The notes below the pieces were generated by a model. It was given only the letters and a program-made list of their open reading frames with translations. It was not told the DNA's origin and did not search any database. From positions 1 to 46,037 of the forward strand of contig CACJEE010000001.1 in NCBI GenBank assembly GCA_902592345.1: 46,037 nt of DNA, written 5' to 3'. Each line of letters starts with the position of its first letter. The stretch's first letter is position 1. Origin of the DNA: an uncultured Alphaproteobacteria bacterium. GTDB lineage: Bacteria; Pseudomonadota; Alphaproteobacteria; HIMB59; GCA-002718135. Of the stretch, positions 14,463 to 38,219 are shown one piece after another. The position numbers and the translations under genes are program-made.

Positions 14463-14496
14463 TTTGCCCTGTATTATTACAGGGCAAATTTTTTTT
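14463..14496 (+). terminator. Rho-independent terminator/attenuator between ehuB and ehuC
   Basis: A perfect 9-bp stem, TTTGCCCTG (14463-14471) with CAGGGCAAA (14480-14488), an 8-base loop and eight consecutive T (14489-14496). The T tract runs straight into the ehuC ATG at 14497. The only Shine-Dalgarno-like bases for ehuC (AGGG, 14481-14484) lie in the 3' arm, so the hairpin could both cut transcription and mask translation. Confidence 0.85.
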
Positions 14497-15165: not shown

Positions 15166-15167
15166 AG

Positions 15168-15827
15168 ATGTATTGGAGTTGGGAAGTAGCTTTTGATGTA
15201 TTACCACAATTAGCAAAAGGAGTTGTAGTAACTGTTCAAGCAACAATAGTTGCGTCTTTATTAGCTTATGTTTTAGGACTTGGAATAGCTATTTTAAAAA
15301 TGTCCAAAAGTAAGCTGTTGAGAATTGTTTTGTACTGGACTACAGAATTTATTAGAAGAACTCCAATATTAGTTCAGCTATATATTGTATTTTATGTTTT
15401 ACCTGATTATGGTATTTTTTTTGAAGCTTTTACATGTGGAGTTTTGGTTCTCGGAATTCATTTTAGTACCTATACAGCAGAAGTTTTTAGAGCTGGAATT
15501 GACAATGTTCCCAAAGGTCAATGGGAGGCTGCAAAATCATTAAACTATAATCAATATGAGACTTGGAAAAATGTAATTTTACCACAGGCTATACCACCTA
15601 TGATTCCACCTCTTGCAAACTATCTTATAACAATGTTTAAAGAAACACCTTTATTAGCTGCAATAACAGTTGTGGAATTATTTAGAGCTGCAGACCAATA
15701 TAGTAATAGTCATTACAAATATTTAGAACCAATGACTTTAGTTGGAGTATTTTTCTTAATAGTATCTATTCCTTCAGCAATTTTAGCAATGAAGTTAGAA
15801 AAACGCTTTAAGCAAAGAAAGATATAA
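15168..15827 (+). CDS. ehuD: Ectoine/hydroxyectoine ABC transporter permease EhuD-like
   Basis: This is the second PAAT permease, 219 residues, with the EAA motif in KGQWEAAKSLNYNQYETWKNVILPQAIPPMIPP and about five hydrophobic segments. EhuC and EhuD form the membrane heterodimer. The ATG follows the ehuC stop by two bases, and the PLP enzyme gene starts one base after its stop, so the catabolic genes downstream are on the same message as the transporter. Confidence 0.88.
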   Translation: MYWSWEVAFDVLPQLAKGVVVTVQATIVASLLAYVLGLGIAILKMSKSKLLRIVLYWTTEFIRRTPILVQLYIVFYVLPDYGIFFEAFTCGVLVLGIHFSTYTAEVFRAGIDNVPKGQWEAAKSLNYNQYETWKNVILPQAIPPMIPPLANYLITMFKETPLLAAITVVELFRAADQYSNSHYKYLEPMTLVGVFFLIVSIPSAILAMKLEKRFKQRKI

Positions 15828-15828
15828 A

Positions 15829-17271: not shown

Positions 17272-17275
17272 TTAA

Positions 17276-18433: not shown

Positions 18434-18456
18434 AATTTTGAAAGGGAAATATTAAG

Positions 18457-20633: not shown

Positions 20634-20654
20634 AAAGTTAAATTGTTTAAATTT

Positions 20655-21656: not shown

Positions 21657-21775
21657 AATTTTCCTTTTATAAGTAGGGGCTAATCTATCTATATAGCGCA
21701 TTTACAATTAGGATTAAATGGCTAAAGATATAAGTTTATTTTAAATTGTTTCAAAATCAGAAACTTTTTATTTTG

Positions 21776-21790
21776 CTCAAAATATTTGAG
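21776..21790. promoter_or_regulatory. Perfect inverted repeat upstream of soxB
   Basis: CTCAAA-ATA-TTTGAG is a perfect 6-bp dyad with a 3-base spacer, in the 148-base divergent region between the Ldh2-family gene and soxB and 14 bases before the soxB ATG. Its right arm overlaps GAGG of a possible ribosome site. A second short dyad, GTTTC (21748-21752) with GAAAC (21760-21764), lies just upstream. It could be an operator. The AT-rich context makes chance occurrence possible. Confidence 0.35.
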
Positions 21791-21804
21791 GATATAGGAA
21801 TTTT

Positions 21805-23070
21805 ATGACTCGTTTTAATGCATGGAATGTATTTAAAAATGGTTTTACTGGTCAAAAAAACTGGGACCGACAATGGCGTGATCCAGTGCCAAAAAAAGAA
21901 TATGACATAATAATAATAGGGGGAGGCCTGCACGGTTTAGCTACTGCTTATTATTTAGCAAAAAATCACAATAAAAAAAATATAGCAGTTTTAGAAAAAG
22001 GATGGATAGGTGGTGGAAACGCTGGACGGAATACAACTATAGTACGTTCAAATTATATGTTGCCTGGTAATCATGAATTTTATGAACATTCATTAAAACT
22101 ATGGGAGAATTTGAGTCACGATTTAAATTATAATGTTATGTTTAGTCAAAGAGCGCATGTCTCGCTTTATCATAGCCCTGGAGCAAAAGATGGGGCAGCC
22201 AGAAGATATAATATTATGCGTTTACATGGCACTGATGCTGAATTGTGGGACTTAGATACTCTAAAAAAAAATATTCCTCATTTAAATTATAATGATGCAA
22301 GATTTCCAATTATGGGCGCTGCTGTTCAGAGGAGGGCGGGTAATGCCAGACATGATTCAGCAGTATGGGGATATGCAAGAGCTGCTGATAGTTTAGGAGT
22401 AGATATATTACAAAATTGTGAAGTAAGTGGTGTTAAGAGATCGCAAAATAATATTGAAAGTTTAGAAACATCAAGAGGAACCATTAAAGCTAAAAAAGTG
22501 GGTTTTGCTGTTGCAGGACATACTTCTGTTTTGTGGCAAATGGCTGGACTTGGAAATTTGCCTATAGAATCTCACAAGCTTCAAGCATTCGTAACGGAAG
22601 CCGTTAAACCTCTTTTAGATCATGTAGTTGTGTATGGTGTTGGAGGAGCTCATTTTTATATTTCTCAATCTGATAAAGGTAGTATGGTTTTTGGTGGAGA
22701 TTTAGATTGGTATAAGTCATATGCTCAAAGAGGAAATTTACCAATGGTTCAAGATACTGCGGAAGCGGCTATGGCCATAATGCCTTGCTTAGGTAGAATT
22801 CGGCTTTTACGTCACTGGGCTGGCGTTATGGATATGTCTATGGACGGCTCTTTTTTTATATGTAAAACCCCTCTATCAAATTTATATCTAAATGCAGGAT
22901 GGAATTATGGAGGTTTCAAAGCAAGCCCTGCTTCAGGTTGGTATTTTGCTGATTTAATTGCCAATGAACGACCTCATAAACATGTTCAAAATCATAACTT
23001 AGAGAGATTTGAAAAAGGAATTAACATTGATGAACGGGGCGCTGGTCCCGATCCAAAATTGCACGGTTGA
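21805..23070 (+). CDS. soxB: Sarcosine oxidase beta subunit
   Basis: The 421-residue FAD/FMN flavoprotein of heterotetrameric sarcosine oxidase has the FAD motif IIIIGGGLHGLATAYYLA near residue 32, then EKGWIGGGNAGRNTTIVRSNY and RHDSAVWGYARAAD with His183 at the covalent FMN attachment site. The terminal part has MDMSMDGSFFICKTPLSNLYLNAGWNYGGFKA. The enzyme oxidatively demethylates sarcosine to glycine, making H2O2 and, with tetrahydrofolate, 5,10-methylene-THF. The order soxB-soxD-soxA-soxG is the classical one. The sarcosine may come from dimethylglycine or creatine; no gene for those steps is certain here. Confidence 0.95.
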   Translation: MTRFNAWNVFKNGFTGQKNWDRQWRDPVPKKEYDIIIIGGGLHGLATAYYLAKNHNKKNIAVLEKGWIGGGNAGRNTTIVRSNYMLPGNHEFYEHSLKLWENLSHDLNYNVMFSQRAHVSLYHSPGAKDGAARRYNIMRLHGTDAELWDLDTLKKNIPHLNYNDARFPIMGAAVQRRAGNARHDSAVWGYARAADSLGVDILQNCEVSGVKRSQNNIESLETSRGTIKAKKVGFAVAGHTSVLWQMAGLGNLPIESHKLQAFVTEAVKPLLDHVVVYGVGGAHFYISQSDKGSMVFGGDLDWYKSYAQRGNLPMVQDTAEAAMAIMPCLGRIRLLRHWAGVMDMSMDGSFFICKTPLSNLYLNAGWNYGGFKASPASGWYFADLIANERPHKHVQNHNLERFEKGINIDERGAGPDPKLHG

Positions 23071-23071
23071 T

Positions 23072-23353
23072 ATGATAAGAATTAAATGTCCATATTGTGG
23101 TGAGAGAGATCATAGTGAGTTTACTTATGGAGGTGATGCATCTATTAAATATCCAGCGCTTGATGCATCTGAGTCAGAATGGACAAAAGCTATTTTTTTT
23201 CGTGAAAATATAAGAGGAATGCAAAAAGAAACTTGGCATCACACAAATGGTTGTAGACTTTGGTTAGAGGTAGAGAGATCTACAATTACGCATGAAATTA
23301 AAAGTGTTAAAGCATGTCACCCACAAATTGAAAAAATTACAAAACATAAGTGA
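23072..23353 (+). CDS. soxD: Sarcosine oxidase delta subunit
   Basis: The 93-residue zinc-binding subunit begins IRIKCPYCGERDHSEFTYGG and continues with WTKAIFFRENIRG and WHHTNGCRLWLEVERST, the conserved SoxD pattern with Cys/His zinc ligands. I start it at the ATG at 23072, one base after the soxB stop; the frame is open further upstream within soxB but the family begins here. The stop overlaps the soxA ATG (TGATG). Confidence 0.94.
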   Translation: MIRIKCPYCGERDHSEFTYGGDASIKYPALDASESEWTKAIFFRENIRGMQKETWHHTNGCRLWLEVERSTITHEIKSVKACHPQIEKITKHK

Positions 23354-26310
23354 TGACATCAGTAAGAAAAGAAAAGTACGGCAAAATAAATAGAGATAAA
23401 GTTCTTGGGTTTACTTGGGATAATAAAGAGTATTTTGGTTATGAAGGAGACTCTCTAGCTTCCGCACTTTTAGCAAATAATATTAAGATAGTTGGTAGAA
23501 GTTTTAAATATCATCGTCCACGGGGTGTTATGTCTTGCGGAGTTGAAGAATCAGGTGCTCTTGTAACTATTGGATCTGGAAGTAAGGCAGATCCCAACGT
23601 TCGTGCGACAACTCAGGAGCTATATTCTGGATTAATTGCAAAAGGACAAAATGCTTTTCCAAATGTAAATTATGATTTTGGAGGTATTAATAATTACCTC
23701 AGTCGTTTTTTCGCAGCTGGTTTTTATTATAAAACATTTATGGGTTTACCTCCTTTTGAGTGGGGAAAGGGCACTGGTATCTGGATGATTTTTGAAAAAA
23801 TTATTCGAAAAGCTGCTGGTATGGGTAAAGCTTCAAGAGAGCCTGATCCAGATAATTATGAACATGCTAATGATTTCTGTGATTTACTTGTTGTTGGATC
23901 AGGTCCTGCAGGTATTGCAGCTGCTCAAGAAGCAGTGAATAAGAAATTGGATGTTATCTTGATTGAACAAGATTCATTGCTAGGAGGCAATAACTTATCT
24001 GAAGCAGAATTTGATGCGAGCCTTTTACAAAATCAATTAGAAAGTAGTGGTATAAGAGTGATGTCTAGAACAACCGCATTTGGCGTGTATGACAACACTG
24101 TAGTTGGAGCTTTAGAAAGAGTTACAGATCATATACCTAATCCAAATAGTAAATTACCACGTCAACGTTTCTGGACGATTAGAGCAAAGCACATAATTCT
24201 GGCAAGTGGAGCTTTAGAGCGTCATGTAGCTTTTAATAACAATGATATACCTGGCGTTATGACAGTAAATGCTTCCAGGCATTACTTAAATAGATATGGT
24301 ATTCTGACTGGTAATAATATTGTTATTACAACAAATAATGACTCTGTTTATCAAACAGCGCTGGAACTTCAAGAAGCTGGATCAAAAGTTACTATTTTGG
24401 ACTCAAGAAAAAATATTAATCTTGATTTACCTAAAGAAATAGATGTTCATTTAAATACTTTACCTTTTAGCATTAATGGAAGAAAAAAAATTGAAGGTTT
24501 GGATGTTTGTAAAGCGACAGATAAAAATAATAAAAATACAATTATTTGTGATCAGGTTCTAATTTCTGGAGGTTGGTCACCAATCGTAAACTTAGTCTCT
24601 CATCGAGGAATAAAACCTATATGGAATCAAGAAAATCTATGCTTCGTTCCGGGTGATATTAAAGAAAATATTACAGTGGTAGGTTCAGCAAAAGGTATTT
24701 GGAATAAAAATGATTGTGTTAAATCTGGTCTAGTTGGAGCTAATGAAGCAATGAATACTCTTGGCATTCACAAAAAAGAAATTTCTTTTCCTTCAGTTGG
24801 TGGCTGGTTAAATCCTATAGATACTCTTTTTGAAGTTAAATCAAATAAATTTCCATCAAAAAGTTTTGTTGATTTTCAACATGATGTAACTGCTGAAGAT
24901 GTGAGATTAGCGCATAGAGAAGGTTTTATTTCTGTTGAGCACCTAAAACGATATACAACTTTAGGGATGGCGAATGATCAAGGAAAGATGGGTAATATAA
25001 TTGGTCTTTCATTAATGGCAGAACAATTAGACAAAACTATACCAGAGGTTGGAACGACAGTTTTTAGACCCCCTTACACTCCAGTACCAATAGGTGCTTT
25101 GACTGGAAGAAATGTTGGAAAACATTTTAGACCTTTAAGAGTAACACCGATGCATCAATGGAATATTGACCACGGCGCAAAAATGATCGAAGTTGGTTTA
25201 TACCAAAGACCTTGGTACTATCCTAAAAAAAATGAAACATTAAGTGACTCATATATTAGAGAAACAACAATTGTTAGAAAAACGGTTGGTATTTGTGACG
25301 TAACATCGCTTGGTAAAATTGCTATTCAAGGACCTGATGCAACTGAATTGGTAAATCGTATATACACAAACCCTTTTGCTAAACTTCCTATAGGAAAGGC
25401 ACGTTATGGAATTATGTTACGCGATGATGGAATGGTAATGGATGATGGAACCTCATGGAGACTTGGAGAGAATGAATATTTTATGACAACATCAACTGCT
25501 GCGGCAGCAAAAGTAATGTCATGGCTTGAGGAGCTACTTCAAACAAGATGGACTGATTTAAAAGTGAATGTAACAAGTGTTTCGGAACAATGGGCAGGTA
25601 CATCAATTGCTGGTCCTAAATCAAGAGATGTATTGAATGAATGTGTTTTGGATTCAAATGAAATTTCTAACCAAAATTTACCTTTCATGGGAGTCTTACA
25701 AACTAAACTTAAGGATGGCACTCCTTGCAGAGTTGTGAGAATAAGCTTTTCTGGTGAACTTGCTTATGAAATGTATATTGAGTCAGATTATGCTCATGGA
25801 ATGATGGATATATTATGGGAAAGTGCCAAAAAATATGATGGTTGTTTATATGGTCTAGAAGCACTAGGAGCATTAAGAGTTGAAAAAGGTCATGTAACTG
25901 CAGCTGAGCTTGATGGAAGAGTAACGATTGATGATGCTGGATTAGGGAAAATGGCATCAACAAAAAAATCTTATATTGGAAGTGCTATGCGTAAAAGGGG
26001 GGTTCTTAATGCAGATGATAGAGAAATGCTAGTTGGGTTTTTTCCTATTAATGAAAAAGAAACTTTTAATGCCGGAACAATTGTTTGTGAAAAAAATAAT
26101 ATTCAAGGTCAAGGTATAGGTCGTATCACATCAGTTACTCATTCTCCAGAACTAGGACATTGGATTGGTATTGGGTATGTCAATGGGGGTCTTGATAGTT
26201 GGAAAGATGTAACATTAGTTGGGGCTGATCCTGTGCGAAATAAACAAATGGAAATCAAGGTTGTATCACCCCATATGATAGATCCTGAAGGCAAAAGAAT
26301 GTATGCTTAA
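23353..26310 (+). CDS. soxA: Sarcosine oxidase alpha subunit
   Basis: The 985-residue large subunit carries, in order, an N-terminal Fer2-like domain (RSFKYHRPRGVMSCGVEE), an NAD-binding oxidoreductase domain (LLVVGSGPAGIAAAQEA, then ASGALERHVAFNNND), and a C-terminal GcvT aminomethyltransferase-like domain (GICDVTSLGKIAIQGPDA, FSGELAYEMYIE, GLEALGALRVEKGH) that binds tetrahydrofolate. It forms the sarcosine oxidase tetramer and the channel that passes the methylene group to THF. ATG 23353 overlaps the soxD stop; a GTG one codon earlier is also open. The gene overlaps soxG by eight bases. Confidence 0.95.
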   Translation: MTSVRKEKYGKINRDKVLGFTWDNKEYFGYEGDSLASALLANNIKIVGRSFKYHRPRGVMSCGVEESGALVTIGSGSKADPNVRATTQELYSGLIAKGQNAFPNVNYDFGGINNYLSRFFAAGFYYKTFMGLPPFEWGKGTGIWMIFEKIIRKAAGMGKASREPDPDNYEHANDFCDLLVVGSGPAGIAAAQEAVNKKLDVILIEQDSLLGGNNLSEAEFDASLLQNQLESSGIRVMSRTTAFGVYDNTVVGALERVTDHIPNPNSKLPRQRFWTIRAKHIILASGALERHVAFNNNDIPGVMTVNASRHYLNRYGILTGNNIVITTNNDSVYQTALELQEAGSKVTILDSRKNINLDLPKEIDVHLNTLPFSINGRKKIEGLDVCKATDKNNKNTIICDQVLISGGWSPIVNLVSHRGIKPIWNQENLCFVPGDIKENITVVGSAKGIWNKNDCVKSGLVGANEAMNTLGIHKKEISFPSVGGWLNPIDTLFEVKSNKFPSKSFVDFQHDVTAEDVRLAHREGFISVEHLKRYTTLGMANDQGKMGNIIGLSLMAEQLDKTIPEVGTTVFRPPYTPVPIGALTGRNVGKHFRPLRVTPMHQWNIDHGAKMIEVGLYQRPWYYPKKNETLSDSYIRETTIVRKTVGICDVTSLGKIAIQGPDATELVNRIYTNPFAKLPIGKARYGIMLRDDGMVMDDGTSWRLGENEYFMTTSTAAAAKVMSWLEELLQTRWTDLKVNVTSVSEQWAGTSIAGPKSRDVLNECVLDSNEISNQNLPFMGVLQTKLKDGTPCRVVRISFSGELAYEMYIESDYAHGMMDILWESAKKYDGCLYGLEALGALRVEKGHVTAAELDGRVTIDDAGLGKMASTKKSYIGSAMRKRGVLNADDREMLVGFFPINEKETFNAGTIVCEKNNIQGQGIGRITSVTHSPELGHWIGIGYVNGGLDSWKDVTLVGADPVRNKQMEIKVVSPHMIDPEGKRMYA

Positions 26311-26869
26311 TAGAAACTCAGCAATAAAAGAAAATTACAAAATTGGAAAATATCCATTTGAAGATAAAATTGAAATTGTATTTTCTGAAAATCATAATCT
26401 TGTAATTCAGCAAATTGCGGCCTGGCCTGATGAAATATCTAATGTAGAAAAATTATTTTCTGATGAGTTAGGTGTTAAACAAAATATCGATTTTAATCGA
26501 GGAGAAATTTTTAAAAAAAATTCACTATGGAGAATGGAGCCCTTAAAATGGTGGTTAATAGGTAGCACCATTAACTTGCCTGAAAATATAGGAACATCAC
26601 TTGAGCTATCTCACGCCTTTACATCAATTATGATAAATGGTGAAAAAAGTGAAATTTTACTAAACCGACATTTACCACTTGATCTGCGTTTAGATAATTT
26701 TCCAATTAATTCATCAGCAAGTTCCGCAATTCATCATGTTAGTGTAAAATTATTTAGGCATAATAAAAATGAATTTAAACTTTTTATACCTAGGGGCTTT
26801 GCTTTGTCTATTTGGGAAATTCTCCTTGAGTCAGCATCTCAATTTGGATACGAAATAAAAGATAATTAA
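26303..26869 (+). CDS. soxG: Sarcosine oxidase gamma subunit
   Basis: The 188-residue subunit is the least conserved of the four. The segments VFSENHNLVIQQIAAWPDE, MEPLKWWLIG, LELSHAFTSIMINGEKSEILLNRHLPLDL and ASSAIHHVSVKLFRH match the SoxG pattern, which resembles a partial GcvT fold. Start ATG 26303 lies inside the soxA end (8-base overlap), giving coupled translation. The doeA-like gene begins 42 bases later, probably on the same message. Confidence 0.9.
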   Translation: MLNRNSAIKENYKIGKYPFEDKIEIVFSENHNLVIQQIAAWPDEISNVEKLFSDELGVKQNIDFNRGEIFKKNSLWRMEPLKWWLIGSTINLPENIGTSLELSHAFTSIMINGEKSEILLNRHLPLDLRLDNFPINSSASSAIHHVSVKLFRHNKNEFKLFIPRGFALSIWEILLESASQFGYEIKDN

Positions 26870-26911
26870 ACCTAATAGACATTATTCTTTTTCCATATTA
26901 AACCAGTAGAT

Positions 26912-28087
26912 ATGATTTTTTCTAAAACAGAATACTTATCAAGATTATCAAAAGTTAAACATGTAATGGATGAAAAAAATATGGATATAATTATCCTAAC
27001 TGATCCATCTAATATGAATTATTTAACAGGTTATGATGGCTGGTCTTTTTATGTTCCTCAAGGTGTGATCGTTTCTCTTGATAAAGATGAACCCATTTGG
27101 TTTGGCAGAAAGCAAGACTCAAAAGGTGCGATGATAACAACTTATCTTAATCATGATAATATACTTGGTTACCCTGAACATTTAATTCAGGCCCCTCCAA
27201 AACATCCCTATGATTTTGTTGCTGATTTTATTAAAAAAAATAATTGGAGTAATAAAAATATTGGTGTCGAAATGGATAGTTATTATTACACAGCTGAAAT
27301 TCATAATCGTTTGTTAACACAATGTTCTAATGCAAAATTTAAAAATGCTCATTTATTAGTAAATTGGATAAGGTATGTAAAATCAGATACAGAAATTGCA
27401 TATATGAAAGAAGGCGCAAAATTAGTTGAAGCTGGTATGCAAACAGCCTTTGATGAAATAAAGCCAGGTGTTAGACAAAGTACTGTTGCAGGTAAAATTC
27501 AAAATACACTTTTAGGTGGTAACCAAGATATTGGTATAGGCGGTGAGTATGGAGGCTTAAATATAATTTTAGCAAGTGGCAAGTCTGCTTCTGCATCTCA
27601 TTTGACACCAACAGATAAAAAATTCAATAATAATGAAGGTACTATTATAGAATTGGGAGGAGTAAAACATAGATATCACTGTGCTTTATCAAGAACAGTA
27701 TACATAGGTGAGCCTGATAAAAAACTTGCAGATACTTTGAAAATTACCAATGAGGGAATTGAAAGAGCTATAGAAGCTACTAAACCAGGTAATACATGTC
27801 ATGATGTTGCCATTGCATTTTGGGAAGTTTTGGAAAGGCATGGCGTTGAAAAAGAATCAAGAGCTGGTTATTCAATTGGTCTTGGTTATCCACCAGACTG
27901 GGGAGAGCATACATTAAGTATTCGAAAAAACGAAATGACAGTTTTAGAGACTAATGTAACTTATCATCTAATGTGCGGAATGTGGATGGATACTTGGGGG
28001 TTAGAACTAAGCGAGAGTATCAGAGTTACACAAGATGGGTGTGAATTATTTTGTAATTTTCCAAGAGATTTGCACATAGTAAAATAA
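26912..28087 (+). CDS. doeA: Ectoine hydrolase DoeA/EutD-like (M24 family)
   Basis: DoeA/EutD opens the pyrimidine ring of ectoine to N-acetyl-2,4-diaminobutyrate. The 391-residue product closely follows DoeA: DPSNMNYLTGYDGWSFYVPQ near the N-terminus, ENVDSYYY-like GVEMDSYYYTAE, NWIRYVKSDTEIAYMKEGA, ELGGVKHRYHCALSRTVYIG where true M24 peptidases have metal Asp residues, and YSIGLGYPPDWGEHTL with MWMDTWGLELSESI. It lies after soxG and not in the eut operon, where it would be expected. An ectoine ring opener is the best call, although this family also occurs in gene sets for other cyclic or N-methylated solutes. It converges on the DUF3726-like gene with one base between. Confidence 0.85.
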   Translation: MIFSKTEYLSRLSKVKHVMDEKNMDIIILTDPSNMNYLTGYDGWSFYVPQGVIVSLDKDEPIWFGRKQDSKGAMITTYLNHDNILGYPEHLIQAPPKHPYDFVADFIKKNNWSNKNIGVEMDSYYYTAEIHNRLLTQCSNAKFKNAHLLVNWIRYVKSDTEIAYMKEGAKLVEAGMQTAFDEIKPGVRQSTVAGKIQNTLLGGNQDIGIGGEYGGLNIILASGKSASASHLTPTDKKFNNNEGTIIELGGVKHRYHCALSRTVYIGEPDKKLADTLKITNEGIERAIEATKPGNTCHDVAIAFWEVLERHGVEKESRAGYSIGLGYPPDWGEHTLSIRKNEMTVLETNVTYHLMCGMWMDTWGLELSESIRVTQDGCELFCNFPRDLHIVK

Positions 28088-28088: not shown

Positions 28089-28769
28089 TTAATCATTAGC
28101 ATCTCCACCACCAGCACCTTTAGATCTTGATTCCTCAGATTCAGGTACATAAGATTTAAAAGCAAGTTCTGACATTTTATCCCAATTATTTTGATTTGGA
28201 CTTAATCCCAAAGATAAATATTTTTTAGAGTCTATTAAATTAATATCTATATCTAATTTTTTATTTTTGTTGGGTGTATTCGATAAAATAATTTTAATAG
28301 AATTATTTATTTTTTTTTGAAATAATATTTTATTTATTGAAATATTTTCTTTATTTACCAAACAAAGAATTTCATTATCATTTATTATTTTTCCATAAAT
28401 ATTTTTTTTTATATATCTACTAAGTAGTGGAATGAGAAATATTGGATCATAACAGTTGATTAAACTAAATTCATTTACATTGTTTGTATTAAATTTAGAT
28501 ACAATATAATCAATAACTCCAGGACCTGTAATTAAATTAGATTTATTATTTAAATCAATAATTCTATCATTTTTAAATAAATCTATTTTATAGTTATATT
28601 CCTTATCATTTGTTGCAATGAATGAACCAAATAAATCTATGCCTTTAAGATTATATAATTCAAACCATGTTATTATATACGCAGCATCTTCATCAGCACC
28701 ATATGGAAAACCTAGACTGGAAAATGCTCTTTGAGCATTTGTATATACTTCATAGTAAGAGTAACTCAC
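28089..28769 (-). CDS. DUF3726-like conserved protein of unknown function
   Basis: The 226-residue protein has an N-terminal YYEVYTNAQRAFSSLGFPYGADEDAAY helix region and the terminal AFKSYVPESEESRSKGAGG, then DAND. These ends resemble DUF3726 proteins of alphaproteobacteria, which as I recall finish in a GAGAGLTDND-like tail; the match is from memory. The Lys/Asn/Ile-rich middle is poorly conserved. No signal or membrane segment is seen. Start is GTG at 28769, since a stop codon lies just upstream in frame. It follows its partner gene after three bases on the same message and converges on doeA. No function is known to me. Confidence 0.7.
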   Translation of the reverse strand: MSYSYYEVYTNAQRAFSSLGFPYGADEDAAYIITWFELYNLKGIDLFGSFIATNDKEYNYKIDLFKNDRIIDLNNKSNLITGPGVIDYIVSKFNTNNVNEFSLINCYDPIFLIPLLSRYIKKNIYGKIINDNEILCLVNKENISINKILFQKKINNSIKIILSNTPNKNKKLDIDINLIDSKKYLSLGLSPNQNNWDKMSELAFKSYVPESEESRSKGAGGGDAND

Positions 28770-28772
28770 AAA

Positions 28773-30413
28773 TTAATTATATGAATTCATCGTAGCAAAA
28801 CCCCAACTATCAACGTTTTCATTATTTAAATCTGATAGAAAAGGCGCTCCTGAAAAAAAACTCACACGCAGCCATCTATCTGATTTTGGATCATACCTAT
28901 TAGCCCCAAAAAAAGATAATTTAAATCTTAGCATGTTTATTGGCATAGTATTTTTTCCAAGAATATTGTCTTGAACTTCTGCAAAAGGATATTTTATAAG
29001 AGATTGAATTCTTCTTATAATTCCTCTGAATTTTGGATTGAATAATAAATATTCTGCAACAGACAAATCAAGATTTTCTTTTTGTAATTTTGAATATAAA
29101 TTATTAACCATTTTTGCAACACCAAGATTTTGCTCCAACTCACTGCCATCTTCATTATATCTTTCACCTAATCTTGGCTCAAGTTTTGCAGCAGAAATAT
29201 ACCAAAACAAAAAATTATTATCTTTTTTTGCAAAATCAACTTTTAAGGCCCAACTATAATTATTTTCAATCTCACTTTTTAATTCTTTTAATGTTTGTGT
29301 CTCATTAATTTCCATTAATTCAGTATCTGACATGTCTTCAGCAAAAACTTCAGAATCTTCAGGATATAATTCTAAAAGCTGAACTCTAGCAATCTCCTGA
29401 GTATCATAATTTAGATTTTTACTTGTATAATTTATTAAATCTATCCAATGTACATAATTATATTTTTTATTTTTGAAATTTTTAATATGATTGATAAATT
29501 TTTTTAAATCTTCAAGAGTTTTTGCATTTTTTTTAATTTGATATTCATCAAATGTTGTTACTTCTTTTAAATAAAGAAGAGCTTTTTCAAGTAATTTTGA
29601 ATAATTAGAAAGTTTTATGGGATCTATATTTTTATTTACTACTTGACTCAAAGATTTAGTATATTGATTCATCCATTTGTTGATTAATTTTGGATGTTTA
29701 ATAATAAAAGGTGCCATTCCTAAGCCAGTTGAATTGCCAATACCAAGATGTTGCTTGATTGTATTTTGAAGTTTTACTGCTTTATTAGGATTTTTTTTTC
29801 TTGCTACATGCTCAACTAAATCAACGCTAAATTCTCTAATGATGTATACTGCAAGCATTTCTGCTCTAAAAGGTTGATTAAAATCAGTCATCTCTTTTGT
29901 GTTGGTAAAATCTGATAAGCCAAATTTTCCACTTCCATACACAGCTGTGGTTCGCAAAAGATAACCAACTTTATTGATTTCATTTATGTCAGGTTGTGTA
30001 CCTTTAGATAAACAACTTACGACATATTCAAATAAACGAACACTTTTATTTGCTCTGCTTAAAATTAATTCTTTTGACGAATTACGACCTGATTCTTGTA
30101 AGGGTACATTTTTTCTTAATCTACTCACTTCATTATTGTTCAATTTTCCACTGATCAATGAGTAAGCGGTATCCCATTTTTCTGCGATCACTCTATCACT
30201 TCTATCTGAATTATCTAGATGTTGTGAAAAACAAACTAAGGAGTAGGTATTATTATTTATTACAATTTCATAAATTACTGTTCCATAACCGTCGTCATCT
30301 AGATCAAACTTTGATTTTGAAATTTTCCAATTATCAAATAATAACCTTCTAAGCATACTTCTAGAAAAGCTTAATCTTGAAGGATATCTGGACCCCATTT
30401 TATCTAGAGTCAT
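28773..30413 (-). CDS. Uncharacterised conserved protein paired with DUF3726-like gene
   Basis: This is a soluble protein of about 546 residues with no signal peptide or membrane helix. The conserved-looking start is GSRYPSRLSFSRSMLRRLL, followed by EIVINNNTYSLVCFSQHLD and DRVIAEKWDTAYSLISG, later GKFGLSDF and FRAEMLAVYIIREFSVDLVEHVA, and a C-terminal RWLRVSFFSGAPFLSDL. I do not recognise an enzyme family. The start is uncertain: ATG at 30413 is used; a GTG at 30482 and ATGs at 30446 and 30398 are alternatives, and none has a clear ribosome site. It diverges from the M19-family gene, and if the GTG were used only 21 bases would separate them. Confidence 0.75.
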   Translation of the reverse strand: MTLDKMGSRYPSRLSFSRSMLRRLLFDNWKISKSKFDLDDDGYGTVIYEIVINNNTYSLVCFSQHLDNSDRSDRVIAEKWDTAYSLISGKLNNNEVSRLRKNVPLQESGRNSSKELILSRANKSVRLFEYVVSCLSKGTQPDINEINKVGYLLRTTAVYGSGKFGLSDFTNTKEMTDFNQPFRAEMLAVYIIREFSVDLVEHVARKKNPNKAVKLQNTIKQHLGIGNSTGLGMAPFIIKHPKLINKWMNQYTKSLSQVVNKNIDPIKLSNYSKLLEKALLYLKEVTTFDEYQIKKNAKTLEDLKKFINHIKNFKNKKYNYVHWIDLINYTSKNLNYDTQEIARVQLLELYPEDSEVFAEDMSDTELMEINETQTLKELKSEIENNYSWALKVDFAKKDNNFLFWYISAAKLEPRLGERYNEDGSELEQNLGVAKMVNNLYSKLQKENLDLSVAEYLLFNPKFRGIIRRIQSLIKYPFAEVQDNILGKNTMPINMLRFKLSFFGANRYDPKSDRWLRVSFFSGAPFLSDLNNENVDSWGFATMNSYN

Positions 30414-30503
30414 AATATCTGATGAAATTATGTTTTGTTGTAACATATAGGGATATATATAGTGGATTATTATCTTTTTCACTATTAGAAGTTAATTAAA
30501 AAT

Positions 30504-31481
30504 ATGGATATTGATAATATACTCATAGATGGTCTTGAATATGTAAACTGGAATAGAGACTTGTTTGAAAAGGCTCACGCTGGAGGCTTAACAGCAATTC
30601 ATGCAACTCTAGTATATTGGGAGGATACCAAAGAGTCTTTTGAAAAAATAGATTATTGGGATAATCTTATACAAACGAATAGTGATATCTTAACCCATGT
30701 TAGAAAATCTGAAGATATTTTTGAAGCTAAAAAATCAAATAAAATTGGAATAATTTATGGTTTTCAAAATTCAGCGCCAATAGCAAATGATATATTTTTT
30801 GTTGAAAAATTTTTTTCACGAGGCCTTCGTTTTATGCAACTGACATACAACAATCAGACCTCTTTAGCTTCTGGATGCTTTGAAAAAAATGACTCTGGCG
30901 TATCACGTTTTGGAGAAATGGTGATTGAAGAGATGAATCGTCTTGGAATGATTGTGGACTTAAGTCATGCAGGAAAAAAAACATGTTTAGACGCAATAAA
31001 TTTTTCAAAAAAACCTGTAGCAATATCTCATGCTAATCCAGCATTTTTTCATAAATCAATTAGAAACATAGATGATGAAGTTTTGAAAAAATTATCAAAT
31101 AAAAATGGATTTATAGGCTTAAGCTTATATCCATATCATTTAAAAAATCATGGAGATTGCAAACTAGAAGAATTTTGTGAAATGATTAAACAGTTAGTAA
31201 ATATGATTGGAGAAGATAATATTGGAATAGGATCTGATCTATGTGTCAATTGGCCAGATAATGTAGTAATGTGGATGCGAAATGGAAAATGGACAAAAAA
31301 AATTGATTATGGAGAGTCTAAAGATAAAAAAGTTAGTTGGCCTAAACCAGTATCGTGGTATTCAAAACCTGAAGACTTATCAAGTTTTCTATCAGGAATG
31401 ATTTCAAATGGTATTAGCGAAAAAATAGCATACAAAATAGCTGGAAAAAACTGGCTTAACTTTATGATCAATCATTTTTAA
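30504..31481 (+). CDS. M19 (renal dipeptidase) family protein with incomplete metal site
   Basis: The 325-residue TIM-barrel protein keeps the M19 histidines in VDLSHAG and VAISHANP and the late IGIGSDLC with the Asp. The family's N-terminal HxD ligand pair is absent (LIDGLEYVNWNRD), and the bridging Glu region reads YGFQNSAP with Gln in place of Glu. This variant set resembles M19 relatives found, as I recall, beside dimethylglycine, stachydrine and carnitine catabolism genes in pseudomonads and rhizobia (PA5396-like). A hydrolytic or demethylation-linked role is likely, classical dipeptidase activity is doubtful. Its stop shares TTAA with the opposing EamA gene. Confidence 0.8.
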   Translation: MDIDNILIDGLEYVNWNRDLFEKAHAGGLTAIHATLVYWEDTKESFEKIDYWDNLIQTNSDILTHVRKSEDIFEAKKSNKIGIIYGFQNSAPIANDIFFVEKFFSRGLRFMQLTYNNQTSLASGCFEKNDSGVSRFGEMVIEEMNRLGMIVDLSHAGKKTCLDAINFSKKPVAISHANPAFFHKSIRNIDDEVLKKLSNKNGFIGLSLYPYHLKNHGDCKLEEFCEMIKQLVNMIGEDNIGIGSDLCVNWPDNVVMWMRNGKWTKKIDYGESKDKKVSWPKPVSWYSKPEDLSSFLSGMISNGISEKIAYKIAGKNWLNFMINHF

Positions 31482-32341
31482 TTTTTTCTTGTTACAAAAG
31501 TTGAAGCTGCAAGGCTGATTAAAACAATAGCAGTTCCTAATAATTGGATAGAAGTTAATTTTTCATTGAGAATCAAAACTGCTCCAAATATTCCAGTGAT
31601 TGGTTCTAAATACAAGAATAATGCAGTATTCGTTTGCCCTATTCTAGGTATTGCTAATAACTGAAGAAAGAGTGCAATTGCATAAGAGCAAGATGGAATT
31701 AACAAAATTAAAAAGGCATTAAGACTTACATCAGTGTCTATCTTATAAAATAAACTTAATATTATAAAAAAGAAAATTGTATTAAAAAAATTAATAAAAA
31801 TATTGATTTGTATAGGTGAAATATTTTTTTTTGACATAGTTTGATTGGTGACAATCATTATCGATGCTCCTAATGATGCAATCAAAGCAAAAATTATACC
31901 TTGAATTTTTAAATCCTCAGTCGACGGACTTAGGGCTAAAAATAAACCAATAAAAGTAGTTAAGAATAAAAATTTAATAATATTTTTTATTTTTTCTTTT
32001 GTTATAAATATAGAAATTGCTAAAACTATAATAGGGTAGGTGCAAAATATAATTATAGTTAAGCTTACGTTAATGTAAGTAACAGATGTTAGTAAGCCTG
32101 TTGTGAGCATTATAGAAGCAATGGTAATTAAAAAAAAATAGCCAAAATTTTTTTTATATGTAGATATTAAATTTTGCTGTCTTGGAATAAGTGGCGATAC
32201 AATAAATAAAGCTACAATATATCGTAAGAAAATCGCAAGACCAACGCCAGCACCAAGATTATAGGCAGTTTTAGTTACTGGGCCAATAATTCCAAAAAAT
32301 ACTCCTGCTGCTAAAGCAAATATTATTCCTAAAATATTCAT
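31478..32341 (-). CDS. EamA/DMT-superfamily permease
   Basis: The 287-residue integral membrane protein has about ten hydrophobic helices in two repeats, the DMT/EamA layout (GVFFGIIGPVTKTAYNLG start and FLYLEPITGIFGAVLILNEKL near the end). Family members export metabolites or import small solutes; the substrate cannot be read from sequence. It diverges from potA by 76 bases and its stop overlaps the M19-family gene stop. Export of an amino-acid by-product would fit the neighbourhood, but this is a guess. Confidence 0.85.
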   Translation of the reverse strand: MNILGIIFALAAGVFFGIIGPVTKTAYNLGAGVGLAIFLRYIVALFIVSPLIPRQQNLISTYKKNFGYFFLITIASIMLTTGLLTSVTYINVSLTIIIFCTYPIIVLAISIFITKEKIKNIIKFLFLTTFIGLFLALSPSTEDLKIQGIIFALIASLGASIMIVTNQTMSKKNISPIQINIFINFFNTIFFFIILSLFYKIDTDVSLNAFLILLIPSCSYAIALFLQLLAIPRIGQTNTALFLYLEPITGIFGAVLILNEKLTSIQLLGTAIVLISLAASTFVTRKN

Positions 32342-32417: not shown

Positions 32418-33515
32418 ATGAATTCAGCAACAGAAAAAACCTTTGTAAAATTTGAGAAAATTGACAAAAGTTATGATGGTGAAGTTCTAGTAGTTAAAAA
32501 CTTAAATTTAGATATTGCTAAAGGTGAATTTGTAACAATGCTTGGCCCTTCAGGTTCAGGTAAAACGACAACACTTATGATGCTTGCGGGTTTTGAAACC
32601 CCTACAAATGGAGAAATCTATCTTGATGGAATGCCGATTAGCAAAATTCCTCCTTATGAAAGAGAGATAGGTATGGTTTTTCAAAATTATGCTCTCTTTC
32701 CGCATATGACAGTTCAAGAAAATTTAGCATTTCCGCTTGAAGTTAGAAAAATGTCGAAAGCAGAAACAAAAGAAAAAGTTCAAAAAGCTCTTGATATGGT
32801 TGAGCTTGGTGAATTTGGAACGCGTTTTCCTGCACAACTATCAGGAGGGCAACAACAAAGAGTTGCACTTGCAAGAGCACTAGTATTTGAGCCAAGACTT
32901 GTCTTAATGGATGAACCTCTTGGGGCATTAGATAAAAATCTTAGAGAACAAATGCAATATGAGATTAAACATATCCATGACAGAATAGGTATTACTGTTG
33001 TTTATGTAACTCATGATCAAAGTGAAGCTCTAACAATGTCAAATAGAATAGCTGTTTTCAATGATGGTGTAGTGCAGCAATTGTCAACACCAGATATATT
33101 ATATGAAAAACCTGAAAACTCTTTTGTTGCACAGTTTATTGGTGAGAATAATAGAATGACTGGAACAATAAAAAGTGTGGAAAATAATTATTGTTCTGTC
33201 GAACTCGAAAATGGTGCTGGTACTGTAAAGGCTTTAAAAGTTAATGTAGGCGAAATTGGAGAAAAAACTCAACTATCCGTAAGACCAGAAAGGGTATCTT
33301 TAGGGTCTGACGGAAATGGAGAAAATGTTTTCACTGGTAAGGTTGAAGAACTTATTTATTTAGGTGATCATATCAGAGTTAGACTTGATGTTTGCGGTAA
33401 TAATGAATTTATTGTTAAGGTTCCTAATGAGGGTTCTTTTGATTATAATGAGGGTGACTCAATTAAATTAAATTGGAATCCCAATGATATCAGAGCTTTA
33501 GATCTTCCAAATTAG
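32418..33515 (+). CDS. potA: Spermidine/putrescine-type ABC transporter ATPase (PotA-like)
   Basis: The 365-residue ATPase has Walker A GPSGSGKTT, Q-loop MVFQNYALF, signature LSGGQQQRVALARAL, Walker B LVLMDEPLGALD, H-loop YVTHD and a C-terminal TOBE domain (LSVRPERVSLG to IRALDLPN). It matches the PotA/CysA-like group importing polyamines and related cations. Separated by 120 bases from potD, it probably has its own and potD's separate promoter. The substrate is inferred only at the polyamine/betaine class level. Confidence 0.88.
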   Translation: MNSATEKTFVKFEKIDKSYDGEVLVVKNLNLDIAKGEFVTMLGPSGSGKTTTLMMLAGFETPTNGEIYLDGMPISKIPPYEREIGMVFQNYALFPHMTVQENLAFPLEVRKMSKAETKEKVQKALDMVELGEFGTRFPAQLSGGQQQRVALARALVFEPRLVLMDEPLGALDKNLREQMQYEIKHIHDRIGITVVYVTHDQSEALTMSNRIAVFNDGVVQQLSTPDILYEKPENSFVAQFIGENNRMTGTIKSVENNYCSVELENGAGTVKALKVNVGEIGEKTQLSVRPERVSLGSDGNGENVFTGKVEELIYLGDHIRVRLDVCGNNEFIVKVPNEGSFDYNEGDSIKLNWNPNDIRALDLPN

Positions 33516-33570
33516 AAAAATCCACCATTTTCTGCGGTATTTTTGCCCTTTTTTTTAGTTTTTCTACATG

Positions 33571-33610
33571 TTAATAGAAGTTTATATATCGACATATAAT
33601 CTTAAGATTA
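33571..33610 (+). promoter_or_regulatory. Candidate potD promoter overlapping a perfect 14-bp palindrome
   Basis: TATAAT at 33595-33600 is a perfect -10 hexamer. TTAATA at 33571-33576 is a weak -35 at 18-base spacing. The perfect palindrome TAATCTTAAGATTA (33597-33610) overlaps the -10 and start-site region, where a repressor would act. AGGAGG, the potD ribosome site, follows near 33625-33630. Confidence 0.45.
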
Positions 33611-33635
33611 ATTAATTTAAAACAGGAGGAAACGT

Positions 33636-34739
33636 ATGTCAAAATTACTTAAAGTTTTCTTAATAGCGTCTTTCGCTGTTGCATCTTTTTCTGCAAAAGC
33701 AGTTACAGTTGCATCATGGGGTGGTGCTTATACAGAAAGTCAACAAAAAGCATATGCTGATACTTATACTGATCCCAGCTCAATTCAGTTTGAGAACTAT
33801 AACGGTGGTCTTGGTGAAGTAAGAGCACAAGTTGAAAGTGGAAGTGTTACTTGGGACCTAGTAGACGCACTACCAGGTGATGCAATCACTGGTTGTGATG
33901 AAGGTTTGTTTGAAGACATAACTACTGAAATTGCAGAATTATCAACTCCAGGACCTGACGGTGAGTCAATGTTAGAAGATATGGAAAACAATGGTCTTGA
34001 ATACCACTCTGGTTGGGATTGTTGTGTTCCACAAATTTTCTGGACTTATGTTGTATTTTACGATCCTGATGCTTTCCCTGGTGATAAACCATCTAGCATG
34101 GCTGATTTCTTTGACGTGGAAAAATTTCCAGGTAAAAGAGGAATTCACACATGGGCAACAGGTATTGTTGAAAAAGCTATGGTTGCAGATGGCGTAAAGC
34201 CAAGTGCGGTTCCAACGGTTTTAAGAGACCAAACTGGAGCACTTGATAGAGCATTTGCAAAATTAGACACAATTAAAGATCATATTGTATTTTGGTCTTC
34301 AGGAGCTAAACCACTTGAATTAGTTAAAAGTGGAGAGGTTGTTATGTCTATTGCTTATAATGGTCGAGTAGGTGCAGCTAATCTTGCAGAAGGTGAAAAT
34401 TTTGAATATATTTGGGAAGGTCAAGTATTAGACCAAGAATATTTATGTTTAGTAGCTGGCGCTCCTAATAGAGATGCAGCTATTGATTTCATGATGCATG
34501 CTTCAACTCCTGAAGCACAAGCTGAACAAGCTAAATATATTACTTATGGACCTATGAGAGCTTCTGGTATTCCAATCATCCAAGCGGGTGAGCCTTGGGG
34601 ACCAGGTGGTGTAGATATTATGCCTCATATGCCTAACACGCCTGAGCGTTTAAAAGTTTCTATCGTTAGTGATCCACAATGGTGGTCTGATAACGGAGCA
34701 GAAATTAATGAGCGTTATTCAGCGTGGATGGGTAACTAA
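33636..34739 (+). CDS. potD: Periplasmic solute-binding protein of Pot-type ABC transporter
   Basis: The 367-residue protein has a 22-residue Sec signal peptide ending SAKA and a mature start VTVASWGGAYTESQQKAYA typical of the SBP_bac_8/PotD-like polyamine group. The rest follows the periplasmic type II two-lobed pattern. AGGAGG gives a strong ribosome site. Members of this alphaproteobacterial group have varied or unknown ligands, so 'spermidine/putrescine' is only a family label. A hairpin after the stop separates it from the permease genes. Confidence 0.86.
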   Translation: MSKLLKVFLIASFAVASFSAKAVTVASWGGAYTESQQKAYADTYTDPSSIQFENYNGGLGEVRAQVESGSVTWDLVDALPGDAITGCDEGLFEDITTEIAELSTPGPDGESMLEDMENNGLEYHSGWDCCVPQIFWTYVVFYDPDAFPGDKPSSMADFFDVEKFPGKRGIHTWATGIVEKAMVADGVKPSAVPTVLRDQTGALDRAFAKLDTIKDHIVFWSSGAKPLELVKSGEVVMSIAYNGRVGAANLAEGENFEYIWEGQVLDQEYLCLVAGAPNRDAAIDFMMHASTPEAQAEQAKYITYGPMRASGIPIIQAGEPWGPGGVDIMPHMPNTPERLKVSIVSDPQWWSDNGAEINERYSAWMGN

Positions 34740-34770
34740 GCTTGATAAAGTAACTAAATTAATTTAATTT

Positions 34771-34801
34771 AAAGGCGAGATTTATCTCGCCTTTTTATTT
34801 T
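34771..34801 (+). terminator. Rho-independent terminator/attenuator after potD
   Basis: A perfect 10-bp stem, AAAGGCGAGA (34771-34780) with TCTCGCCTTT (34785-34794), a 4-base loop TTTA, then TTATTTTT. It is GC-rich relative to its surroundings and followed within a few bases by the potB ribosome site GGAGGT (34803-34808), so readthrough must supply potBC. Confidence 0.88.
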
Positions 34802-36078
34802 TGGAGGTTCCTATTTCTACTGCAGAATTATTGACAACTGACGGCGTACCTTTAAAGCAAAGTCTAAAGAAAGCAGAGCGTAAAAACAAAATAAGAGCTT
34901 TCCTTTTAGTTTTTCCTCTATTGCTATTTATCATTGTTACTTTTGTAATGCCAATTGGTGATATGTTATTAAGAAGTGTTGATGATACTCAAATTAATAC
35001 TGTTTTTCCGAATACATTTTCAGAGTTCAAAAAATGGGATAAAGAAAAAGACGAACTTCCTCCTGAAGAAGTCTATAAAGCTTTATTTGAAGAATTAGCA
35101 TATGGAGATAAAATTCAAGTTGGAAGAGCCTTAACGAGAATGAATTATTCTAAATCTGGATGGAAAAGTTTGATAAAAAATACATCCAGAGCAATTAAAA
35201 AAGCAGTAAAAAAAAATGAGTTTCCTGATTCGTACAAAGATTTTTTAATCACTGCTAATGATAAGTGGGCAGACCCAACTTTTTGGTATGCTATGGGTCA
35301 AATGGTAAACAATCAGACTCCTATTTATTACTATAATGCAATCGATATGACATATGATCAGGATCAAAATGTCATTAGGCAAGAGGAAAATAGAAGGGTG
35401 TATGTTCAAACTTGGATTAAAACACTAAAGGTTAGTGTGTATGTAACTTTTTTCTGTTTAGTTTTAGGTTTCCCAGTCGCTCATCTTTTAGCAAATTTAC
35501 CTCTTCGTTATAGTAATCTTCTAATGATTTTCGTGTTACTTCCTTTTTGGACATCATTACTTGTGAGAACAACTGCATGGATTGTAATGCTTCAACAACA
35601 AGGTGTAATTAATGGAATATTAGTATGGCTTGGTATTCTGAATGATGATGGAAGACTTTCAATGGTATATAATGAAACTGGAACGCTCATTGCTATGACT
35701 CAAATATTATTACCTTTTATGATACTTCCTTTATATAGCGTGATGAGAGTAATACCAAAAAGTCATATGAGAGCAGCACAAAACTTAGGTGCTAAACCAG
35801 CAACTGCATTTTGGAAAGTATATCTGCCACAAACTATACCTGGAATGAGTGCTGGTGGATTGTTAGTTTTCGTATTAGCAATTGGATATTTTATAACACC
35901 TGAATTGGTGGGTGGAAAAGATGGTAAATTGATAGGTAGTTGGATAGCCTATCATCTTAAAACAACTTTAAATTGGGGTCTATGTGCAGCTCTTGGAGCT
36001 ATACTCCTTGGAGTAATGCTTATTTTTTATTGGCTTTACAATAAAATTGTTGGCATAGATAATATTAAACTAGGATAG
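34801..36078 (+). CDS. potB: Pot-type ABC transporter permease 1 (PotB-like)
   Basis: The 425-residue inner-membrane permease has TM1 near residues 31-52 and then a polar segment of about 140 residues (roughly 60-200) before the remaining helices. The EAA loop is RAAQNLGAKPATAFWKVYLPQTIPGMSAG. Typical PotB is about 285 residues, so the extra periplasmic segment is notable, though such long versions occur in alphaproteobacteria. The start is unresolved: the open frame begins at TTG 34801 but the clear GGAGGT ribosome site lies inside that extension, and the codon at proper spacing is ATT (34813). potC follows after two bases. Confidence 0.86.
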   Translation: MEVPISTAELLTTDGVPLKQSLKKAERKNKIRAFLLVFPLLLFIIVTFVMPIGDMLLRSVDDTQINTVFPNTFSEFKKWDKEKDELPPEEVYKALFEELAYGDKIQVGRALTRMNYSKSGWKSLIKNTSRAIKKAVKKNEFPDSYKDFLITANDKWADPTFWYAMGQMVNNQTPIYYYNAIDMTYDQDQNVIRQEENRRVYVQTWIKTLKVSVYVTFFCLVLGFPVAHLLANLPLRYSNLLMIFVLLPFWTSLLVRTTAWIVMLQQQGVINGILVWLGILNDDGRLSMVYNETGTLIAMTQILLPFMILPLYSVMRVIPKSHMRAAQNLGAKPATAFWKVYLPQTIPGMSAGGLLVFVLAIGYFITPELVGGKDGKLIGSWIAYHLKTTLNWGLCAALGAILLGVMLIFYWLYNKIVGIDNIKLG

Positions 36079-36080
36079 AT

Positions 36081-36977
36081 ATGGCATTACCAAGTTACGC
36101 AACACCTGTACAAAGAACTTATTACTACGCATATTTATTTTTTTGTAGTGTTGTATTCTTTTTTCTAGTTGCACCTTTAATTGCAATTGTTCCTATTTCA
36201 TTCAGTGTTTCTCCATTTATGGTCTTTACTGATGGTATGCTTTCATGGCCTCCAGATCCAGACGCATGGTCATTAAGATGGTACCAAAATATGATTGGTA
36301 ACTGTAGTGCTGATGTAGTTTCTTCTACAGTACCATGTTCACATAAATGGATGACAGGAACAGTAAATAGTTTCTTCATAGGATTAACAGCAACATTTAT
36401 CGCTACAACTCTAGGTACTATAGCTGCTCTTGGCCTTAGTAGACCACACATGCCATATAAAGGTTTAATAATGGCTATACTTATTTCTCCAATGATAGTT
36501 CCTTTGATTATCACTGCTGCTGGGATGTTCTTTTTTTATGCTAGAATAAATCTTGTTTACACATTTACTGGTGTTATCCTTGCCCATGTAGCATTAGCAA
36601 CTCCTTTTGTAGTAATTACTGTTACTGCAACTTTAGTTGGCTTTGATATGAATATGGTTAAGGCATCACAAAGTTTAGGAGCAAGACCTGTGAGAACTTT
36701 TTTTAAAGTAATAATGCCTTTGATTTTACCTGGCATTATATCAGGCGCTTTATTTGCATTCATTACTTCGTTTGATGAAGTTGTAATAGTTATGTTTATG
36801 GCAAGCTTAGATCAACTTACAATCCCAAAACAAATGTGGGCGGGAATTCGTCAAGAAATAAGCCCAGTAATTTTATGTATGGCGACTTGCTTAGTAGCAC
36901 TATCTATTTTTTTATTAACTACAGTCGAATTATTAAGAAGGCGATCAGAGCGATTACGCGGCATTAAATCAAGGTAA
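36081..36977 (+). CDS. potC: Pot-type ABC transporter permease 2 (PotC-like)
   Basis: The 298-residue permease has six predicted helices and an EAA motif in KASQSLGARPVRTFFKVIMPLILPGIISG. It pairs with PotB as the membrane part. Start ATG 36081 follows the potB stop by two bases. The flavin oxidase gene begins six bases after its stop, so the imported compound probably goes directly to that enzyme. Confidence 0.9.
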   Translation: MALPSYATPVQRTYYYAYLFFCSVVFFFLVAPLIAIVPISFSVSPFMVFTDGMLSWPPDPDAWSLRWYQNMIGNCSADVVSSTVPCSHKWMTGTVNSFFIGLTATFIATTLGTIAALGLSRPHMPYKGLIMAILISPMIVPLIITAAGMFFFYARINLVYTFTGVILAHVALATPFVVITVTATLVGFDMNMVKASQSLGARPVRTFFKVIMPLILPGIISGALFAFITSFDEVVIVMFMASLDQLTIPKQMWAGIRQEISPVILCMATCLVALSIFLLTTVELLRRRSERLRGIKSR

Positions 36978-36983: not shown

Positions 36984-38219
36984 ATGACTAAACCGCATAT
37001 TGCTGTGGTAGGTGCTGGGATAATTGGTATTTGTTCAGCATATTTTTTAAATAAATCTGGTTTTAAAGTAACATTAATTGATAAAAATGAACCAGGTTCT
37101 ATGACAAGCTACGGTCATGCTTGTACATTTGCTGATTATGCATGTATCCCTGTTAACTCACCAGATTTATTTAGAGATATTCCATCAATGTTATTAAGAA
37201 GTGATGGGCCTTTAGCAGTTGATTTTTTATATACAATTAGAAACTTAAGTTGGGTTATGAAGTTTTTACAAAATTGTACAACCAAAAAGGTTAAATATAT
37301 ATCTAATTCTTTAGGCAATTTACTTAATAACGCAAGCACAAGCTATGATGAAATATTTTCAGATGTAGATGTTTCTCAATATATTAAAAATGAAGAAGCT
37401 TTGTATTTGTTTGAAAATGAAAATGAATTTTTAAAAGCATCAATAACAAATAAAATAAGAGAAAAAAATGGTGTAAAGATAAAAAATCTCTCTAAAAATG
37501 AGATACTGGAACTTGAACCTAATCTTGCGCCAGTTTTTTTTAATGGTCAACTTTTTATAGGTTCACGACATACTACTGATCCATTAGCTGTAAGTAAAAA
37601 AATTTTTGAGTCATTTATAAATAACGGAGGTAAATTTGTAAAAAATAATGTTGAAAACATTATTCCTAATGAATCTAAGGTTTGTGTTAGTTTTAAAAAT
37701 GAAAATTGTATTTTTGATAAAGTTGTTATATCTGCTGGTTCATGGTCAAAAAAATTAACAAGAAAATTTGGAGATGATTTTCCACTAGATACTGAAAGAG
37801 GTTATCATGTTTTGTTTAATAATTATGAATTGATAAACAGGCCATTAGGATGGTCTCAAAGTGGTTTTTATCTTGTCCAGTTGGATGAAGGTTTAAGAGC
37901 TGCTGGAACTGTAGAAATAGCAGGTTTGTCAAAACCAGAAAATAAAAAAAGAACAAAAATGATAGAAAATCAGGCTAGAAAATTATTACCTCAACTTAAT
38001 GACGTTAAAAGTACTTGGTTGGGATTTAGACCTACTATGCCAGACTCTTTACCAGTTATTGGGCAATCGCAAAAAAATAAAAATGTCATTTATGGATTTG
38101 GTCATCAGCATATAGGTTGGACGCTTGGTGCAGTAACTGGAAAAGTTATTAATTCAATATGCAATGATAGAATACCAAATATTAATATTAAACCTTTTAG
38201 TCCAAGTCGCTTTAATTAA
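36984..38219 (+). CDS. FAD-dependent D-amino-acid dehydrogenase/oxidase-like (DadA family)
   Basis: The 411-residue DAO-fold flavoprotein begins HIAVVGAGIIGICSAYFLNK (FAD dinucleotide motif) and has DKNEPGSMTSYGHACTFA, VVISAGSWSKKL and the C-terminal WLGFRPTMPDSLPVIG plus GFGHQHIGWTLGAVTG, the DadA pattern. Members oxidise D-amino acids or secondary amines such as N-methylated glycine or hydroxyproline. It sits at the end of potBC, so its substrate is likely the imported ligand. AAGGTAAATTAAA precedes the start. The stop shares TTAA with the opposing aldehyde dehydrogenase gene. Confidence 0.82.
   Translation: MTKPHIAVVGAGIIGICSAYFLNKSGFKVTLIDKNEPGSMTSYGHACTFADYACIPVNSPDLFRDIPSMLLRSDGPLAVDFLYTIRNLSWVMKFLQNCTTKKVKYISNSLGNLLNNASTSYDEIFSDVDVSQYIKNEEALYLFENENEFLKASITNKIREKNGVKIKNLSKNEILELEPNLAPVFFNGQLFIGSRHTTDPLAVSKKIFESFINNGGKFVKNNVENIIPNESKVCVSFKNENCIFDKVVISAGSWSKKLTRKFGDDFPLDTERGYHVLFNNYELINRPLGWSQSGFYLVQLDEGLRAAGTVEIAGLSKPENKKRTKMIENQARKLLPQLNDVKSTWLGFRPTMPDSLPVIGQSQKNKNVIYGFGHQHIGWTLGAVTGKVINSICNDRIPNINIKPFSPSRFN

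Follow-up and report, generated by a model that had tools for sequence, protein, structure and literature searches.

Three genes in the 46,037-nucleotide stretch of DNA analysed here (the window), which encode a protein without a known family (X), a DUF3726 protein (Y) and a non-canonical M19 protein, form a conserved module that reaches far outside the HIMB59-like lineage of the window. X and Y form an obligate pair and in some cases a single fused gene, with M19 as their nearly constant companion. In a sample of the class, X is present in 53/385 genomes, and all 42 genomes above the DUF3726 cut-off carry X with Y directly behind it; in a sample of the phylum, X is present in 29/398 genomes, some of which lie outside the class. 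In a set of 71 neighbourhoods with some redundancy, Y directly follows X in every one and an M19 gene lies within 5 kb of X in 65. The three genes are present or absent together across 61 relatives, where the few mismatches correspond, as far as visible, to contig ends or broken genomes. The Fisher values of these comparisons are indicative only; they count related genomes as if these were independent. The sequence-only reading of this DNA had staked the module on co-occurrence of the three families beyond this lineage, and the trio is indeed found widely in both samples. In relatives, the M19, X and Y genes overlap or nearly overlap, and X and Y are fused into one gene in Mesorhizobium sp. 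131-2-1 (locus L080). A divergent X homologue of 868 aa (locus L127, 8550-11156) has an extra C-terminal part that is Y-like by eye, possibly a second, independent fusion.

In the window, the open reading frames place Y (28089-28769, 226 aa, GTG start) and X three bases apart on the minus strand, diverging from M19 (30504-31481, plus strand, 325 aa, ATG start), as had been described. The X frame as listed spans 28773-30482 (minus strand, 569 aa counted from GTG), and the M19-X spacing is 21, 57 or 90 bases depending on which of three possible X starts is used, in agreement with the range given earlier. An in-frame TAA falls within the first 12 codons of this frame in a 98%-identical locus (L033), and in-frame stops are also found in other relatives, so GTG 30482 is not the start used. 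Judged by conservation and by these stops, X is a predicted protein of 557 aa (28773-30446, from ATG 30446) or 546 aa (from ATG 30413). X, Y and M19 are genuine genes, as their frames stay intact and recognisably similar in relatives that range from 98% to ∼25% identity. The divergent intergenic DNA between X and M19 (30447-30503) is strongly conserved in close relatives; visual inspection suggests a promoter-like sequence (TTAACTTCTAATAGTGAAAAA...CCACTATATATAT), and the region is a putative promoter.

X was described earlier as uncharacterised, which agrees with our searches of Pfam, NCBIfam and the PDB, where X gave chance-level matches only, both as a single sequence and as a profile; it was likewise absent from the phage records searched, and viral contigs yielded no relatives. 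Structure prediction, suggested as a check on this protein, used 16 close relatives and returned a model with a pLDDT of 54 and no confident fold. X has numerous Arg, Asp and His residues that are invariant. An 81%-identical piece of X (locus L048, 547-1173) sits on a contig titled as a Flammeovirgaceae MAG, probably a mis-binned contig.

Y matches DUF3726 (PF12525) at 26 bits against a gathering cut-off of 22.1 and has the conserved N-terminal region in common with this family. Pfam models 73 N-terminal positions of DUF3726 with no fold or function, whereas here the whole Y chain is predicted (pLDDT 82.9, pTM 0.82). Superposition of this model on 15 Ldh2 structures gives Z-scores of 11.7-15.2 over 171-204 aligned residues (rmsd 3.2-3.9), the next match having a Z-score of 5.5; in Foldseek, the Ldh2 E-values are weak (2.6e-3 at best) at a probability of 1.00. 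Profile-profile comparison with Ldh2 yields a P of 1.2e-5 (probability 60), whereas none of six other families does better than 0.4. The best Y members reach 15.5 and 14.1 bits with the Ldh2 model PF02615, below its cut-off of 38.8, and Y of the window gives no match. By prediction, Y is thus a shortened Ldh2 (type 2 malate/lactate dehydrogenase) fold that spans nearly the whole ordered chain, with a conserved C-terminal GAGxGxxDND-type tail. A literature search for DUF3726 found no paper, and its recognition as a shortened Ldh2-fold protein, on the strength of a confident model, is new here. Y shares fold and remote sequence similarity with Ldh2 proteins such as YiaK, sulfolactate dehydrogenase and delta1-piperideine-2-carboxylate reductase, but is ∼130 residues shorter, lacks their SHG and GGxKG motifs and always lies directly behind X. 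SHG or SHA is present in 2/43 Y sequences (possibly by chance) compared with 15/17 Ldh2 neighbours, and GGxKG is present in 0/43 Y sequences. Because the catalytic SHG motif of Ldh2 is missing, Y is probably a non-catalytic partner of X, and probably also lacks the NAD(P) part.

The M19 protein matches PF01244 at 240 bits (cut-off 26) and is a relative of 2i5g (E 2.6e-62), with which it shares a non-canonical N-terminus. Its earlier description as non-canonical is borne out, as DGLEY stands where DGHxD is expected and Q88 takes the place of the bridging Glu, a replacement seen in 65/65 trio M19 proteins of our alignment. By pattern match alone, a crude HxD pattern occurs somewhere within the first 60 residues in 10/65 of these proteins. 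H155, H176, R187 and D245 are retained, in common with the 2i5g subgroup of the M19 membrane dipeptidases; the positions of the HxD and of the bridging Glu are assigned by alignment and from the known ligands of renal dipeptidase. The M19 protein here differs from the M19 membrane dipeptidases in carrying neither the HxD nor the bridging Glu, and in its linkage to X and Y instead of peptide genes. The change of the bridging Glu to Gln, together with the non-canonical N-terminus, makes canonical dipeptidase activity unlikely.

Elsewhere, the usual gene order is LysR-ALDH-M19-(BCCT)-X-Y-(Ldh), as in records of Phaeobacter, Sulfitobacter, Aminobacter, Vibrio and Caballeronia, and the X operon is rearranged in Pseudomonas. 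Some X operons are also accompanied by glycine-betaine ABC genes, RidA, DMGDH-like or Rieske genes, and in Phaeobacter the operon is adjoined by a Sox/Mgd-like complex that groups in a tree with Mgd from an mgs-gmaS cluster. Divergent trios of ∼25% identity in Sinorhizobium and Bosea occur with IclR and a polyamine-type ABC transporter. The nearest named families to the operon aldehyde dehydrogenase (ALDH) are the 2,5-dioxovalerate and alpha-ketoglutaric semialdehyde dehydrogenases, at 478 bits and hence well under the cut-offs of 750 and 770. In the window, the trio is followed by an EamA-type transporter gene (31478-32341, minus strand), the genes of a spermidine/putrescine-type ABC transporter (ATPase, substrate-binding protein and two permeases; 32418-36977, plus strand), a FAD-dependent amine/amino-acid oxidoreductase gene (36984-38219, plus strand) and an ALDH gene (38216-39649, minus strand), the transporters being assigned by family match. 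This flank is retained across the clade wherever the contig reaches, including the ABC transporter, and similar ABC genes lie by the divergent Sinorhizobium and Bosea trios; the transporter is a candidate for substrate uptake by the module. Neither LysR nor BCCT nor the operon-type ALDH adjoins the trio in the window, and in this HIMB59-like lineage only the core and the polyamine-type ABC transporter are kept together. The ALDH of the window (38216) is 46% identical to an ALDH encoded next to the Rieske oxygenase genes that occur in the vicinity of X in Pseudomonas and Phaeobacter; as a candidate for the operon ALDH it was rejected, since it groups with a different ALDH. The incomplete genome of the window yielded nothing close to the operon ALDH (best 35%).

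As the recurrent transporters and neighbouring genes point to a betaine-type substrate, we lean slightly towards a general model in which X, Y and M19 together make up the core of a pathway that breaks down an N-methylated compound of the betaine type. The sequence-only reading had proposed the trio as a module for N-methylated amine use, and this survives in part: the module is conserved and fits the BCCT and glycine-betaine-type transporters and the DMGDH-, Sox/Mgd- and Rieske-type neighbours, and what is not supported is its tie to sarcosine oxidase and ectoine hydrolase. In the general model, the betaine would be imported and then opened or rearranged by X-Y, where Y would bind or shield the substrate and X would carry the reaction; X is cast as the reacting subunit because so many of its Arg, Asp and His residues are invariant and because Y is without the Ldh2 catalytic motif. 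M19 would hydrolyse what X-Y has opened, and the result would be oxidised, by an aldehyde dehydrogenase akin to 2-oxoglutarate-semialdehyde dehydrogenase, to a C5 acid, which may be 2-oxoglutarate, glutamate or N-methylglutamate; a C5 product is suggested by the proximity of the operon ALDH to the 2-oxoglutarate-semialdehyde dehydrogenases. A more speculative extension, to which we give a low probability, is that X is the first example of a separate enzyme class: two subunits would make up the enzyme, X for the chemistry and Y, a dehydrogenase fold that has shed its catalytic parts, for holding a ring-shaped betaine (e.g. homarine) during ring opening. Points that weigh against the general model are the low pLDDT of X, which gives no confident structure, the scores of the operon ALDH well below the family cut-offs, the separation of the trio of the window from LysR, BCCT and the operon-type ALDH, and the IclR and polyamine-type transporters of the divergent trios, so that substrates may differ between subfamilies.

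The best guess at the substrate is homarine (N-methylpicolinate), an algal osmolyte, although we hold homarine itself to be possible rather than probable. Some Ldh2 enzymes (delta1-piperideine-2-carboxylate reductase) act on cyclic 2-carboxy imines, and a ring of the homarine type would suit the Ldh2 fold predicted for Y. The published homarine catabolism operon is reportedly named homABCDER, a gene count that presumably fits LysR plus ALDH, M19, BCCT, X and Y. In a search of the literature for the operon and for homarine, the only find was a paper that cites work on this pathway (PMC13390433). This paper states that N-methylglutamate dehydrogenase (Mgd) takes part in homarine catabolism and refers to a 2026 pathway paper by Ferrer-Gonzalez et al. 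(doi 10.1038/s41564-026-02313-7). Both operons belong to environmental bacteria, and the Mgd-like complex that adjoins the X operon in Phaeobacter may be a further point of likeness. The 2026 homarine pathway work may already cover the operon described here.

The same module could also serve another betaine or N-methylated amino acid, such as carnitine, stachydrine, hydroxyproline betaine or trigonelline, or have substrates that vary with the lineage, a reading that we consider possible but short of probable. Regulators and transporters do vary, LysR occurring with BCCT or glycine-betaine ABC genes and IclR with polyamine-type ABC genes; the DMGDH-like, Rieske and Mgd/Sox neighbours are recurrent but not constant, and the type of ALDH also fits 2-oxoglutarate semialdehyde derived from hydroxyproline. 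Against this, no single betaine pathway is known to need X and Y, and the known stachydrine and carnitine routes run without them. A different division of labour, with Y as a working NAD(P)H-dependent reductase that X assists, could draw on the Ldh2-like fold over 195-204 residues, and is nonetheless very unlikely given the rarity of SHG/SHA, the lack of GGxKG in any Y, the ∼130 missing residues and the separate Ldh2 gene that is often kept adjoining Y. We also regard it as improbable that X-Y-M19 acts on a peptide-like or N-acyl amide compound, with M19 a true amidase/dipeptidase and X-Y accessory to it: membership of the M19 family and the retained His pair, Arg and Asp are consistent with such a role, but the bridging Glu is Gln in 65/65 proteins, the HxD site is replaced both in the protein of the window and in 2i5g, and the neighbouring genes encode betaine transporters and ALDH rather than peptide transporters.

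The opposite flank of the trio bears on a further reading, in which the trio works with the adjoining sarcosine oxidase and ectoine-hydrolase-like genes. The neighbours of the trio do include, as had been noted, a DoeA-like M24 gene and genes resembling those of sarcosine oxidase; DoeA is the nearest PDB relative of this M24 gene (26912-28087), which scores 468 bits against an NCBIfam equivalog cut-off of 613. Several relatives, with X identities as low as ∼68%, preserve this arrangement, but some close relatives have the trio with no M24-Sox flank next to X, and most trios elsewhere are without Sox/M24 genes. In a tree, SoxA of the window groups with Roseovarius and Shinella copies that are set among transporter and M24 genes without X next door. 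Joint action with this flank is thus an outside chance in our estimation, and the special tie drawn earlier between the trio and these genes is not supported, as the latter have a conserved context of their own in other bacteria; the sarcosine oxidase and ectoine-hydrolase-like genes of the window seem to belong to another module. The Sox complex of the window was also considered as an Mgd, which the tree does not support (it falls in a different clade from the Phaeobacter Sox/Mgd, although the root is weak). The region 13603-28087 as a whole encodes an SBP_bac_3 transporter, M20, two M24 proteins, a trans-3-hydroxyproline dehydratase-like protein, Ldh2 and SoxBDAG, apparently a separate catabolic set, and similar transporter-M24-Sox sets are found on plasmids of Roseovarius pelagicus (L172) and Shinella (L174). 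Farther away, a TorA/BisC-type molybdopterin S/N-oxide reductase gene (10420-12714) lies near an arylmalonate-decarboxylase-like gene (7734-8486), and glutamate-cysteine ligase and glutathione synthetase genes adjoin each other at 1352-3630.

Should these genes already be assigned in the 2026 homarine paper, the operon would lose much of its interest. X is without a described family though widespread in marine and soil Proteobacteria, including HIMB59-like, roseobacter, rhizobial, Pseudomonas and Vibrio genomes, and the predicted Ldh2 fold of Y provides a first structural handle on the DUF3726 family. Finally, the module would provide a gene marker for the flux of carbon and nitrogen through homarine or another abundant algal betaine, should it prove to degrade one of these.
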